Source: Arctopsyche grandis (Eukaryota > Arthropoda > Insecta > Trichoptera > Hydropsychidae). Taken from it: 64,000 bases of DNA. The position numbers and the translations under genes are program-made. The stretch covers positions 20,599,501 through 20,663,500 of the forward strand of contig NC_135359.1 in NCBI RefSeq assembly GCF_051622035.1, in the 5' to 3' direction. The notes below the pieces were generated by a model. The model did not search any database, was not told the DNA's origin, and was given only the letters and a program-made list of their open reading frames with translations. Shown here piece by piece: positions 5,724 through 42,078 of this stretch. Position 1 is the stretch's first letter; the number at the start of each line of letters is the position of its first letter.

Positions 5724-7201
5724 ATGTGGCAATTAAGAATGGCCGCTTCCGGTCTGATGCTGGGAGTGCTAGGTTTGCTGGCTGTCTCTAAAGCTGATCC
5801 CATACCATCATCTCATTTACCCACAATCAACCAGGCTATCGAACAACGACAGGTTAGACATGTATTCAGATCAAAGAGTTTCATCAACAGTTTTTATAAT
5901 GTAACATGCAAATAACAATATTTAAAACGACGTTTTCAGTTGGAAGCATTAAACTCGGAAATAGAAGACGAGAAACGCGCATGGAATAATTTGCATGGAG
6001 GATGGGGTAAGAGAGGATGGTCAGATATGAATTCGGCTTGGGGCAAAAGAGCATGGCAAAACTTGCACGGTGGATGGGGAAAGCGGGGCTGGCAAGATAT
6101 GAACTCGGCATGGGGAAAGCGAGGCTGGAAAGACATGAATTCAGCATGGGGAAAGCGGGGCTGGAAGGATATGAACTCGGCATGGGGTAAACGAGCATGG
6201 GACAACCTTCGCGTAAGATCATATCACTAAAATTACAAAATACACATACACATACATTTTAGGGTGAAATTAAGTTGTATTTTATATTTATAGGGAGGAT
6301 GGGGAAAGCGCCAATGGGAAAAATTGAACGGAGGCTGGGGCAAGAGGGAAGCTGATGATCTATATGATGGCTCATACCAACCAAATTACGATTCAGATTT
6401 ATACGACAGCAACATTTATGATCAGCTACAAGAATCTCCCCTGACCATGAGGGTATTTATTTTTTATTACATACCTCCTTTACGATTACAATTCAGGAAA
6501 AAGTTTGCCTCTTATCCGATCGTTTTCATACTTTGCCATATTGCTCATTTTGGTCATCAATATAAGTAAATGGATCCTCCACCATTACGATGGTGCAAAA
6601 ATATCGTGTAAGACGCGTTTGATATCTGCCCGGCGAGATAGTCGTTGACGTTTATCCATCGTTTGTTTATTAGTTTTAAGCATAGATGGCGGTAGTAAAA
6701 TAAAATTATTGTTTTTGTTCAAAATAATAATTTTATATACAAATTATAGAAGAGGTATGTTTTTAAAAAACTTTTTTTTTTGTAAGTGTATAAATTTTAT
6801 AATAACATTTTTTTTTTAATTTAATGTAATTTGTAGTTATTGAACAATAAGGAAGCTGAGGAACAGGACATGGCAATTAAAGGCGCGAAAGCTGCAGCTC
6901 AAAATATTAAAGGTACTTACATATATACATTTAAAATTTAAATTTAGAAAATTGCGTTCATATTTAAATAAATGTAATTAAATTTTTTGATGATTTAGGA
7001 GCAATGGATAAAAGAGAACCTGGCTGGAATAACCTTAAAGGACTTTGGGGAAAGAGAAGCGTTCCGGATTACTTGGATGGTGCGTTTGAAATTTAAAATT
7101 TCAATATGTACATACAATTTAGTTGATATAAATCCATCATTGAATCTACTGATTTGGTTTTCTTTGCAGAATTACAAAGCGAAGACAGGCGAGAGGAATA
7201 A
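5724..7201 (+). CDS. Mip: Myoinhibitory peptide / allatostatin-B (prothoracicostatic) precursor
   Basis: Secreted neuropeptide precursor. Processed MIPs are C-terminally amidated and act through the sex peptide/MIP GPCR family to inhibit muscle and endocrine targets. Coding exons: 5724-5852, 5940-6212, 6294-6452, 6837-6912, 6999-7079 and 7170-7201; all introns are GT-AG with matching phases, giving 249 codons plus TAA. Residues 1-24 form a signal peptide (hydrophobic core LMLGVLGLLAV). After an acidic spacer there are nine peptides, each followed by GKR, which supplies the amide glycine and a dibasic cleavage site: AWNNLHGGW, GWSDMNSAW, AWQNLHGGW, GWQDMNSAW, GWKDMNSAW (twice), AWDNLRGGW, QWEKLNGGW and EPGWNNLKGLW. 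All show W(X6)W. The seventh spans the intron at 6213-6293. The start chosen is ATG 5724, just inside the acceptor at 5717-5718; an in-frame ATG at 5703 would lie in the intron. A 5' untranslated exon is expected further upstream. Confidence 0.96.
6469..6760. mobile_element. MITE in Mip intron 3 (family B)
   Basis: A 292-bp insertion with short terminal inverted repeats ACATACCTC and GAGGTATGT, beginning 16 bp after the splice donor at 6453. A related copy lies in reverse orientation at 62406-62728 (ends ACAAACCTC and GAGGTTTGT). They share the phrase ATAGATGGCGGTAGTAAAAT and the adjoining CTTATCCGATCGTTTTCATA. Without it the intron would be about 92 nt, the size of the other Mip introns. No transposase is encoded. 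Confidence 0.7.
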
Positions 7202-13326: not shown

Positions 13327-14687
13327 TTACATTTTCGTTATGGGACTTCCGGTTACATATCCAGATCCTACAGTAAGTTGACTATGATTTGAACCAGAGT
13401 TTGTCATTTGACTATTAATTGTGTGACCTGGACGTTTATCTATAAAAAAAAAAACAATTATTTTATTTTTATATATGCATGTACATTAAAGAATAATAAA
13501 AAAATAAAAAAAAAACGGTGAAAAAGTCATCCACTAACCAGTATGGCATTTATTCCCCTTCTTTTCATTGGAAGACGTATAACTTTTCCTCTCCGAGCTC
13601 TTCGACCTTGATCGATGACTCTTAGCACTACCTCGGCTTCCTTTACCAGAGCCAAATCCAGGACTTCTTCCCCTACCACTTCCATTGTTATTTCTACCAT
13701 TTATAATATCATTATTTTCGAAATAACTAGAATCAGTAGAGTAATCGGGACTGTACGGCCTTCGCTGAGTGTGACTCGGCGAACGACCGGCCTTATTATT
13801 GAAAGCGTTGGGATTTTGAGTTCCAGCATTCTGGATAGGATGCATCTTTGGACCGCTTTGTACGTTTATTTCTTGGGTTGGAAATTGATCAGCTTTGTAT
13901 GGCGCAACTGGAGTTTGATTCTGCTGCGAGCATGCTTCCGGCGACGGACAAGGATACTACACATAAAAAAAAAACAGCGATGATATAATGAACAAGTCAA
14001 ATTTCAGATTCAAACACATATTCGTATTGAATAATCACCTGATCGCCACCACAGCTACTAGTAATATCACTTCCAGAACAACTGCAATCGCATTCATTAT
14101 AACTGAAACAGTTAGTTTCACTCTCCCCGCCGAGATTTGATGACGTGCAATCCTAATAAAAAAAGGTTTGCTTTTAGTATGCTAGTTCAAATATAATCAT
14201 ACATATATTAGTTGTAGTCAAAATTTTACTTGTGATATGCAATCCTGCGGTTCCATTATATCTTGGTATTCAATATCTTCTTGACAGTGATTGTTCGGCA
14301 TTGGATAATTCTGATTTGGATGGTGTCTATACATTATTTCATCGGGCAATTGTTGCTTGGAATGTATTTGACCGTGCGGTAGACAACCGGTCGCTTGAAA
14401 ATTATGCGGGAATGAAGGTATCTGAAAAGTATGACATTTATTCAAGTAATTAATTTTAATTTTAATGCAAATATCATTGTTTAACAATTGCGAATGTAAT
14501 TACAGGAGGCGGCTGCCCAGATGGAGGATTAAAACGACAGTTAAACTGTTGATTGTCTCCTTGATTATCCAACACTTGTTCCATAATTTGCTTTTTATTA
14601 GCCGATGGCGATGAAGGAATAGGATTTGACCTAATATTTATATTTCCGGCTTGATTTGTTGGTTGATTGTTTTGTTCATTTCTCATA
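13327..14687 (-). CDS. robo1: robo exons: C-terminal tail
   Basis: Five exons (14687-14504, 14421-14230, 14152-14039, 13956-13539, 13439-13327). The sequence is Asn/Gln/Pro-rich with NPPSGQPPP, a cysteine-rich segment ([11 protein letters not shown]), and an Arg/Ser/Gly-rich stretch ([20 protein letters not shown]). It ends [10 protein letters not shown] then TAA. I found no clear CC3 polyproline motif. Confidence 0.85.
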
Positions 14688-17600
14688 CTGAAATTAAATA
14701 CGGTAATAATTAAATTAATGTATAACAAAATAAAAAAACAAGTTAATATAACTAATATTAAGTGAAAACCAGAAATTAAGTACAAAATATGCCTACCGAT
14801 AGTCTCCGCAACTGCCGTAAGGTTGCTCAGGTGGCGAAGGAAGAATATCCCTCAAATTGATTCCACAATTTCTACTGTCCTTTCTATATCCATCTTGTGC
14901 ATGACTGGTTTTCGTGTTGCCTTCCATTACAGAACTATCAGAGTAATGATTAGCAAAGTTCCCATGGTGAGTGTTGGTCTTATTAGGATAATATCCCCTA
15001 TTTTCTAAATTCGGATTGCTAAAATTAGATCTGCCATGAGGCTCATGAGTTGTCATGCCCCTTGGCATGTCCAAATTGGGGTGCGACACAAAATTTCCCA
15101 AATTAGGATTGCCGCAACCGTTGTAATTGACTTGTGCCGACCTTTCATAGCAATTGTTGTCGCGTGTGATGAAATTATCCCTTTCAGAATTGGAATACTC
15201 CCCACCAGAATGAGGAATATCGGCATAGTTTCCCGAATTCGACGAATTGTACGATCCGGTATTCTGCTGTATAAAAGTTCCTCTCTCGTTCGGATCTTGG
15301 CATGGATACTGCTGTCGTCGACAGTGTGACATTTTATTATTTTCGAACGGGAGCGATGACGGTTGAATCAAATGATCCGAATATGGATTCAACGGTATCC
15401 TTTCATGATACGGAGGACCGTTGATCTGGTTGCGATTCTGAAAATTGTGAATAAATAAATTACAACATCGTTTTTTCAATATAAATAAATGCAAAATAAA
15501 TTCTGACAAAGACCCTTAAGCTAAGCAGGTTTGTATTGTACTGAGAGGACTTGAACTAAGTAGGAGTAGGAGCAAATGTTTTGAAACACCGCCTACAATA
15601 GTTGCAAGGACTCCGATGAAAGCAATGAAGCGATAAATATTATATGGTTTAATATGAGTATGATATTTATTACCATCGGTATGAGATGATGTGTGGTATG
15701 CTGGTGTGAGGAAATAAGGAGTTCATTGTCAGTGTATTCTGATGAAGATGGACTCACTGTGGACTTGACACATGAATCGTCAGAGTTCATTGCATCCTAG
15801 TAGAAGAAATAAATAAAATGTTGCAATACGTACACAACGAAATGAACCAAGTAAACAAACAACAGGGATAGCAAAAAGTACAAAATGATAAAATATTGAA
15901 GACATTGACACAAGGAATAAAAAAATAAATTATAATAAAAACACACATAAGAACGACGTAATGGATGATTGTGCAGATGAACTCTGTAGTGTGATTGTAG
16001 GTTTTTTTTTTTTTTTTAAGTTATCTTTTCATTCTTTCGCAATACTTACCAGTGATCTGGGACCTTGGTTTGGCACGCATAAAGCAGTTGTGGCATACGG
16101 TTCAGGAGGAGCTGTTTTGTTGATAAGATTTCCACCGGCGTTGTTCCCTTGATAGAAAGTGCTCAGATTGACTTCGGCGTATTCTGAATTGGTTCCATCG
16201 CCAGTCGGGTGTTGCAACCCTGGTGAATTATATGAATAAATAAATAAACATGAATTTGAAATGATTTTGCAACGAAAAATGTATACACAACATACCTAGA
16301 GCTCCTTGTAAGAGCTTGGTTTGACAGTCCTTGTCGTCTATTCTACTTGGAGTGCTGTCCCTTGTTCGCCAGCCCCGTTCTAACCACAAAGATGAATCTT
16401 TATTTAAAGCACATATTTCTGATGCTGTTACAACTGGGACTAAATATACAAAAGACTCGTTAATAATCATGTCCTCTTTTAAATTATGTAAAATAAAATC
16501 AATATAAGTATACCATTGAAATGTCCGAGTTGCTTATCGGTGGTTCGTCGCTTCTTGAAGTAGACTATAGCCATCACGATGGCGAAAGCTATAAGCACCA
16601 CGCACAAGCAGAGGGTCACAAACCAAGGTTCTTTCACGACCTGCGTCACTGATCCATTCGGAGACGGACCCGTCCTATTAATCAAACAAACAAAAAAAAT
16701 ACTATACATATCTGACATCAAATATTAATCATTCAAAATAAATGTTTATACTGACTTGATTAGTTGGTTGATTGTGTAGTTCGGGTCCATAAGTAAAGTA
16801 GTCGGTGCACTGAACGGTCCTGCACCTTTGGAAGTAGCTGCAGCAACACGTGCAGCGTATTTATTACCACTGGTCAAATTATTTATGACTACTGATGTAG
16901 TTGTAGCGTTTAATGTCATCTGTGCCAAAATTTTTCCAGTCTCGTTTGCCTTAATTTGTATCTAAAAAGAAAAAAATAATATATTTTAGTACATATGTAC
17001 TTTGACTTAAATTAAGGCATGTTTGAAAATGAAACAATTGTATGAGATAATAAGCTCAAAATGATTTAGTTCAGAGATTGTAGTTAGCATTCCGAGGACG
17101 AAATTAATGAAATAACAGTATTGTTATAAACACGGATGTTTAATATAACGTGCGGGAAGAAAGTAAAGTAGTAGCCACCAACTTGATCGAATCGGTTTAA
17201 ATCGCAGGATAGCAACCCAAAATCGACCATGTCGTAGAGCCTTTACAGAATCAAAGAATATAATTTTATTTTCATAATTACCTTGTAGCCCAGAATTAAG
17301 CCATTTTGATGTTCCAAAGGCGGCGGAGACCATCTGACAAAAGCGGATGTATTATTGATCATACCGAGGTTGACTTTATCTGGTGGAGCTGACGGTACTG
17401 TAAAAAGAAAGAAAATATTTGTAAATGCAATTTTTACGTCATAAATAATTAAACAATAGGTAACTAAGGGTTTGTTTATTATTTGTTGGAATATCAAAAT
17501 TATTCGTATAGGGATATAATAGAGTTCTAGAAAGAAATATGAAAATTTTACATTTTGATGTTATTATTCTTGGTAACACAATTTCAGGTATGGTGTGTGA

Positions 17601-20600
17601 ATATAGGACAAAATTTATTGACAACTTTTTATCGACGAAAAATTTTTTCATAGGAATATTTGCTGAAAAGTATTTGAAGGAAAGGCTCGGTAATTCAATT
17701 GACATTCTTTTGCTCGACCACATATCTTGTCATGAAAAATCATTGAAAATCAATAAAAAAAGAGCTGATACAAACGTTCAGCTAAATGGATTTTGTTGTC
17801 AAGATGGAGTGAATACTTTGGTATTGTATATTAAATTTGACGATATTTGACGTTTACGTATTTGAAATTCCACTTAAATTCAATTCTATGTAAAGTTTGT
17901 CTTTGATTCAATTATTTCAGGAAAATTATTCGTTTATTAGAAAATTTGGATATCTTATGAATCTTCCGATGATAGCAAATAAATATGACCCAATGTGTCA
18001 ATGTATAAATAATAAAATTGACAGTATATTCAATCTATATGCAAACAAGGATAGTCTGTATTCAATTGAGAGTCTTTTTAACAAGTTTGCAACATTTCTT
18101 TATATTAACAGCTTTTTTTTAAACATATTTAATCATTTTTAAATACAAGAAGTAATTTATAGAATAGAATTTCATCAATGGTTGTCGCAATTGGATGATT
18201 TAGAAAATGAAGTAAATTTCAAAGAAAGTAAAAATCACCAAATTTTACTAAACCAGCTAGATAGCACATCTGCTATGGAACATCTGAAGAATTACATATT
18301 TACTTATTGCGGTAGAAAAGTTGCATCTGAATTAGTGAAAGAAGAATGTGGGATGGATGCCAGTGAAGTAATTAATATTTTGTTGTTTCCTCTTTAAAAT
18401 TAAAATAATTATAATTCTTATAAGTGAGCGTGTGGAGATTTCTCTTTTACATTATATACAAACGAGAAGATGGAACAAAATCGAATTGCGAGGCTATAAA
18501 AAAGATGAAAAATGCATAGCAGCTGAAATCATCAGCATTGACAAAACGATAGATGGAATAATATTGAAAACTCAATCGAAAGACGTTGAATATCAGTGTA
18601 ATATGTTATTGATGGCATTACCTGTTTACAAAGTGAAAGGTATATCAAATAAATTAAGCTAATATAAACCATGTAAAAAAGTTTGCTAAAAATAAGAACC
18701 ATTTAATCACTTTCAATAATTGATAAAAAAATCTGTAAATAATGACGATTTTAGAAATTTATATTGATTCAACTCTCATGTCTGATAAAGAAAGGATGGT
18801 TATATCGAGCATGCATCACCATCTGTTGAAAAAAGTTACCATAAGCTATGCGAAATGTTTTTGGCACGGCAAAGACTTTACGACTTTAACGACTTTAGAC
18901 GAACCATTGTGGTATAATTTTTTAATAATCCATGTAATATGGTTATTCGTATAATGTTTATCAATATTATATCAAAATTTTAGGAACATTAAGGTGGGAT
19001 CTAATTTAAGAAGATCAAAAACATTACATAAGTATGTCTTTCAACAGCCTTGCATTACAGGATATTACAGGATAAATTATAATGGTAAGATAATTCCGTT
19101 AGTGGTCATAATAAAACAGAATGTATTATATAAAAATAAAATATTTAGAAGTTGGGGATGAAAAATCTAAGCAAGATAAAATAATTGAACAATTAAAGAG
19201 AATTTTTGGGGAAGAATCGAAGAATTTCATTCAATTTACAGAAGAATGGGTTGCAGGCGCTGATATACCGAAATTGGGGCATTTTCATGGTATTTCAAAT
19301 ACTTTTGTACGACATAATATATTTTTGCAATCATTAAAAATGCCGTCTAATTCCAGATTTATTAAAAATGTTAAATAGCAATAGTGAATTAGGAAAAATC
19401 GAATGGAGTGCATTAGATTTATACAATGGGTGTGATTTAGAATCATCTCTACGAGCTGGATATCTGAGTGTATTCAACACAATGTATGCTCTAAGACCAC
19501 AAGTAAATAAAATATTTTATTACATTTCACATATTATATCACAAATATCAAAGAAATGTTGCAGATAATTTATAAATACAATGTTTCAGGCAATAAGCAT
19601 CAACGATATTTTCATGATATATCCACCGAGAGTCCTTCGAGGATTTACAATAGCCAGATTTATTCGAAGCATCAATTTAAAAATGTTAATCAAAATTTGG
19701 ATGCTATCATCTTATGCTTTTCTAGCATATAAAATTATCAAATTTCTTATAGACATGTTTAAGTAATAGTTTAATATTGTTTATATTTAAATAAAACCTA
19801 CCATCTTCTATTGTTTTTCCAATTTTGGCATTGGAAGGCTTCCCTTGAAGCATTTTATAATACGGAACTAAGAATATGTCATATTTGGTATTGGGTCTCA
19901 AGTTTTGAAGTAGAAAACTAGTTGAGCCACCATTTCTTGCAGATACAACGGAATATTCTTCGCTCGCATTCAAGGGACTGCCTGTAATCTTCGGTGGTTT
20001 TTCAGTCTCACTCTGGACCTCAATTCTACTTGTATGCCTCTGTTTTATTACTTCTATTTCATTCGGAAGCTCCTTATATCTAATATAAGTGCCTTCTAAG
20101 TATTCGTCATAATCAATCAACAACTGAAACATATAATAAACATTAATAAATTATATATTTTTAGTTATGATACATTTTTATTGTAGTATACTCACATCCC
20201 AAATCACTTTTAAAGATGTAGAACTTAACGGTATGACTTGTTTCAACGATAGTACATCGGAATCGAGGAATTTCCTTGCTTCGACGAGTTCGAATTGTGT
20301 AATCGGTTGAATATCTTTCTGCCAGGTTAGTACGGGTTCGGTCATGTCGCTCGGGGCTGATGCTCCATATTGATTCCAAGCTCTCAAAACAAAGCGATAG
20401 AGCGTTTCAGGTTGTAAACCCGTCACCTAAGAATGTTCAATTTGTTAGTTTCAGTTAGATAGTTGACGTTAACATATGTAGTTAAATATGTATGTGTGTT
20501 ATAAATACCGTATATGCTTCCTCAAGTATTCCTTTGCTTGCAACGATCCAACCAGTTTGCAAAGTTGAACTAAAGTATTCAACAGAGTAACTGAAAACAA

Positions 20601-41996: not shown

Positions 41997-42078
41997 GCTG
42001 AGGTGTCCGAGTGGTTAAGGAGTTGGACTTGAAATCCAATGGGTTCTACCCGCGCAGGTTCGAATCCTGTCCTCAGCG
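41997..42078 (+). tRNA. tRNA-Ser (anticodon UGA)
   Basis: 82-nt class II tRNA. The acceptor GCTGAGG pairs perfectly with CCTCAGC (42071-42077), with discriminator G. The anticodon stem TTGGA/TCCAA encloses CTTGAAA with anticodon TGA. A short variable arm (GGGTTCTACCCG) and a T-arm with B box GGTTCGAATCC are present. The A box is intact. No intron. Confidence 0.96.

Follow-up and report, generated by a model that had tools for sequence, protein, structure and literature searches.

A single-copy gene of monoamine oxidase descent, probably encoding a pseudoenzyme, lies antisense in a roundabout intron of Arctopsyche grandis

Monoamine oxidase (MAO) sits in the mitochondrial outer membrane. Its Lys296 belongs to the active site, its GGRT and GTE motifs make flavin contacts, its Cys397 carries FAD covalently, and Tyr398 and Tyr435 form a cage. 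MAO activity in insects is described as limited, with N-acetylation used instead (PMC4394704, PMC6070697), and a gene showing the fate of MAO in such an insect lineage would make MAO loss traceable. Antisense nesting of genes occurs frequently in insects, and most such genes have no relation to their hosts, according to one account (PMC3786989), which also treats the Drosophila gene 2mit within timeless2. Here we describe a locus of Arctopsyche grandis (Trichoptera; Hydropsychidae) that we interpret, with moderate confidence, as a single-copy protein-coding gene which descends from MAO, is placed antisense within an intron of roundabout and most likely now encodes a pseudoenzyme. If that is what it encodes, a MAO pseudoenzyme would put the fold to a new use, and the gene exemplifies a class that annotation can readily overlook (antisense, nested, short-exon and fast-evolving).

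The nested gene and its roundabout host

The window, meaning the whole stretch of 64,000 nucleotides analysed, covers positions 20599501-20663500 of contig C5 (NC_135359.1) in an assembly of 476 Mb. Its minus strand carries a roundabout gene, from which the protein used for tree building was taken (16800-39830). Joining its exons by eye gives matches to insect roundabout proteins among candidates of 0.55-1.75 times the query length, the best among the matches listed being Nilaparvata roundabout homolog 2 (41%). In a 30-row robo tree with long branches, the window protein shares a long branch with a sax-3-like protein of Trichoplusia (Lepidoptera), with support of 100/100, Prorops being next (92/93). 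The host intron (17398-19801, minus strand) separates two fibronectin-III exons and has proper splice ends; the exon upstream (19802-20121, minus strand, upper border set by eye) encodes a peptide ending in GKTIED and the exon downstream (17281-17397, minus strand, lower border set by eye) one ending in GYK. These flanking peptides match insect roundabout proteins, in agreement with the preliminary description of this DNA, which named robo as the host. Low-complexity open frames at 13534-15515 (minus strand) may represent the roundabout cytoplasmic tail, and ARAGORN places a tRNA-Ser (tga) at 41997-42078 (plus strand), within or adjoining the roundabout gene. Open reading frames at 5916-6400 on the plus strand of the window contain repeats such as AWNNLHGGWGKR and GWSDMNSAWGKR, which we take to resemble a myoinhibitory peptide/allatostatin-B precursor.

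On the strand opposite roundabout, ten exons and nine GT-AG introns of 64-115 nt, rebuilt by hand, give one frame of 502 codons plus a stop, from an ATG at 17539 to a TAA at 19764-19766, with a product of 502 aa. This coding sequence (17539-19766, plus strand) lies wholly within the host intron and spans 93% of its 2404 nt, with 141 nt of intron ahead of the ATG and 35 nt beyond the stop. An AATAAA at 19790-19795 (plus strand), 23 nt past the stop, is a possible poly(A) signal. The rebuilt model thus retains what was first reported, namely a ten-exon open frame over this span, antisense in and nearly filling an intron whose ends are proper on the minus strand; the upper intron size of 115 nt also stands, the minimum of 61 nt becomes 64 nt, and about 499 codons become 502.

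Exon 1 (17539-17587, plus strand like the nine that follow) carries the ATG and the first Rossmann strand, GNTISG. Exon 2 (17654-17820) has an uncertain 3' border, and exon 3 (17921-18071) has two uncertain borders and a weak donor, GTCTTT. One profile match crosses the join of exon 4 (18150-18367) and exon 5 (18438-18639), and the longest includes exon 5, exon 6 (18755-18911), which carries a lysine aligned with Lys296 of MAO B, and exon 8 (19149-19289), identified by the exon model and the profile match. The own codon frame of exon 7 (18984-19084) ranks second of three; exon 9 (19357-19502) lies outside the profile match, in a stretch covered by global alignment only, and exon 10 (19590-19766) encodes the C-terminal hydrophobic segment (residues 480-498) and the stop. 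Selection of the splice model was partly visual and made with MAO as the expectation. Of 614 splice variants scored, the best attains 44.5 bits, compared with 41.4 for the model used here, the borders around exons 2-4 being unfixed.

Monoamine oxidase ancestry and coding signal

The spliced protein scores 21.2 bits (E 2e-4) against the Pfam family Amino_oxidase (PF01593), whose cut-off is 19.8, in a match confined to residues 226-377; this places the conceptual protein inside the FAD amine oxidase superfamily. This similarity appears only once the exons are joined, with none of nine raw stop-to-stop exon frames matching the family, and an NCBIfam search with the nested protein returned none above a cut-off. 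Solved structures yielded 13 matches with E no higher than 10; every one is a MAO A or a MAO B, the best being rat MAO A (4.5e-5). A profile of 23 MAOs (19 vertebrate and four prokaryotic) gives three colinear matches, at residues 5-27 (3.4 bits), 125-203 (10.8 bits) and 222-382 (23.9 bits); these segments and the hydrophobic maximum at the tail agree with the earlier claim of a MAO likeness running from the N-terminal strand to the C-terminal hydrophobic segment. Decoys for this profile comprised 1000 shuffled chains, 154 other windows, 2000 sequences with shuffled residues and one reversed sequence, of which those longer than 20 aa were searched and 1398 gave a score. Judged by these profile scores, the nested gene descends from an animal MAO, with a resemblance beyond chance, because the model reaches 41.4 bits and the best decoy 3.9, and a chain chosen for length only still reaches 28.9. 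Single vertebrate MAOs score 8.5-24.6 bits each against the nested protein and the four prokaryotic MAOs at most 3.1 bits. By structure matches and single-sequence scores, it is closer to MAO A/B than to the other amine oxidases compared. An HH-suite comparison of a bacterial profile with the single nested sequence gave a probability of 2%.

Coding signal was compared with chance in several ways. A length-maximising search for open-exon chains yields 1641 coding nt in the real host intron, against at most 1152 nt in 1000 dinucleotide shuffles of it, none of which reaches 1509 nt. Chain length alone is weak evidence, because two of 78 other windows of the sequence, with higher GC, give chains of 1527 and 1551 nt; among the 12 windows whose GC does not exceed 0.31, the longest chain is 1011 nt. 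GC content is 0.309 in the nested exons and 0.216 in the nested introns, a contrast equalled by three of 2294 shifted exon masks. Codon scores were trained on 1874 codons from roundabout and three further genes of this genome; by these scores, the gene's own frame is best of three in nine of the ten exons and best of six in seven, compared with 44% and 28%, respectively, of 5845 exons from shuffled chains. The overall codon score is equalled by 94 of 1000 shuffled chains and by one of the 78 other windows.

Identity of the nested protein to 19 animal MAOs is 18-20%, which fits the strong divergence noted in the preliminary description. The frame was maintained through most of its divergence, because about 44 stops would be expected if its codons were random in its composition, and after only 3.2-3.8% unconstrained substitution one or more stops would be present with a probability of 95%; this statement is read from one genome and applies to the past only. 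The selection argument originally put forward is accordingly narrowed: an open frame does not carry it by itself, since chains of equal length occur elsewhere in the window, and an open frame at 18-20% identity to MAO does.

Relatives in the genome and in databases

Searched against the genome, the nested protein gives 10 matches, all at its own locus, and the host-intron DNA is single-copy in a search that skips common words; the nested gene is single-copy in the 476-Mb genome. Matches to the Pfam amine-oxidase family fall at 11 places in the genome with an E limit of 0.001, and at 16 with a limit of 10. Three frames taken as representatives are spermine oxidase-like or protoporphyrinogen oxidase, the places on contig C7 are LSD1-like by eye, and the remaining rows on C2 and C5 were grouped by position, one weak row on C4 (E 1.14) being left out of the identification. 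With a fish MAO as query, three places come up at an E limit of 0.01, and all of them belong to the two spermine/polyamine-oxidase loci. No ordinary MAO was found in exon-by-exon genome searches with the fish MAO and the Pfam family; a very diverged copy could be overlooked, because the searches proceed exon by exon and missed the nested gene itself. The LSD1-like exons on C7 occupy 25756517-25776686 and 26368541-26368678, about 0.6 Mb apart, and may belong to one very long gene or to two, or may pose an assembly question. On the plus strand of C2, an open frame (1-753 of the extracted locus) adjoining a polyamine-oxidase-like gene resembles, by eye, a piece of retrotransposon reverse transcriptase.

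A search of 5.8 billion proteins, insect annotations included, yielded 6760 candidates for the nested protein and none at E up to 0.001; the search uses at most 100 exact words, and distant orthologues may escape it. Viral contigs searched with nested exon 5 gave 33 pattern matches, none of them confirmed. A literature search, with subscription journals mostly outside its coverage, returned no description of such a nested MAO-like gene, which is consistent with the gene being previously undescribed.

State of the protein and comparison with described systems

Among 16 MAOs, 59 alignment columns are invariant, and the nested protein keeps 16 of these, the alignment being weak after residue 383. 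Retained positions include the first and last glycine of Gly-x-Gly-x-x-Gly and the equivalents of Lys296, Tyr301, Phe305 and Trp306; those changed include the equivalents of Gly13, Glu34, Arg38, GGRT, Trp388 and GTE. The nucleotide-binding motif reads GNTISG, with threonine for the middle glycine. Leucine aligns with Glu34, an aspartate standing three residues further, and SCHE and ALD align with GGRT and GTE. The lysine aligned with the active-site Lys296 is Lys289, within the best profile segment. Cys397, Tyr398 and Tyr435 are absent in the global alignment, in a stretch outside the significant profile segments. The part of the protein that corresponds to MAO B residues from about 188 to 232 falls short of it by some 25 residues. 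The hydropathy maximum of the nested protein, 1.45 against 1.73 for MAO B, falls at residues 480-498, the position of the MAO membrane tail, and in MAO B too the tail is the most hydrophobic segment. A working MAO seems unlikely, because only 16 of the 59 invariant residues are kept and most of the flavin-site residues are lost. An oxidase function for the product is unsupported on the same grounds. A fast-evolving, still active flavin oxidase, binding FAD non-covalently through altered contacts, would account for the two motif glycines, the Lys296-aligned lysine and its neighbours Tyr301, Phe305 and Trp306; we nevertheless consider it improbable given the loss of the equivalents of the middle glycine, Arg38, GGRT, GTE and Trp388 and the shortening around MAO B residues 188-232.

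The main rival to the pseudoenzyme is a recently silenced gene, in which the protein was kept until lately and what remains is an unexpressed pseudogene still without a stop. The weak donor of exon 3 and the failure to find annotated relatives among 5.8 billion proteins at E up to 0.001 speak for it, and a frame may stay open for about 3% neutral divergence; ten exons that are all open, nine introns that all have GT and AG, and a codon frame signal in nine of ten exons speak against it, and on balance we regard silencing as rather unlikely, while giving it more weight than any other rival. A locus whose antisense RNA disturbs the transcription or splicing of roundabout, its protein being incidental, would suit a gene that fills the host intron on the opposite strand, and its transcript end probably overlaps a host exon because the AATAAA lies 6 nt away. 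Such RNA would not retain a 502-codon frame and its codon signal, however, and nested antisense genes in insects are common and mostly unrelated to their hosts (PMC3786989), which makes this explanation very unlikely. Least credible is chance, that is, open stretches with favourable splice sites that happen to resemble MAO: single exon frames lack a Pfam match and long open chains occur elsewhere in the window, but the model's profile score far exceeds that of every decoy and largely persists in the chain chosen by length.

The product is most likely an expressed, tail-anchored MAO pseudoenzyme that would have lost catalysis and kept scaffold and tail. Its transcription would start in the stretch of roughly 140 nt that separates the ATG from the host splice acceptor, and the transcript would be spliced nine times and end at the AATAAA at 19790. 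The protein would be held in a membrane by its C-terminal tail and would use what survives of the substrate-side scaffold to bind a partner or ligand; it would not oxidise amines with bound flavin. More tentatively, the MAO lineage may be represented here by one flavin-less, tail-anchored pseudoenzyme only, its scaffold selected for a non-catalytic job that is possibly tied to the neural expression of the host.

Animal MAO A/B is the closest described protein: the nested product shares its length of about 500 aa, colinearity over residues 125-203 and 222-382, an aligned Lys296 and a hydrophobic C-terminal tail, and differs from it in its low identity, in 43 of the 59 invariant residues and in lacking about 25 residues of a FAD-domain segment. 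The spermine/polyamine oxidase, LSD1 and protoporphyrinogen oxidase encoded elsewhere in this genome have the Pfam domain family in common with it; the three spermine/polyamine and protoporphyrinogen oxidase proteins tested differ in scoring at most 0.2 bits against the nested protein. In its genomic setting, the gene is comparable with 2mit, likewise a complete protein-coding gene that lies within an intron of its host and antisense to it (PMC3786989), whereas 2mit belongs to another protein family, has two exons instead of ten, and has a known expression and phenotype.
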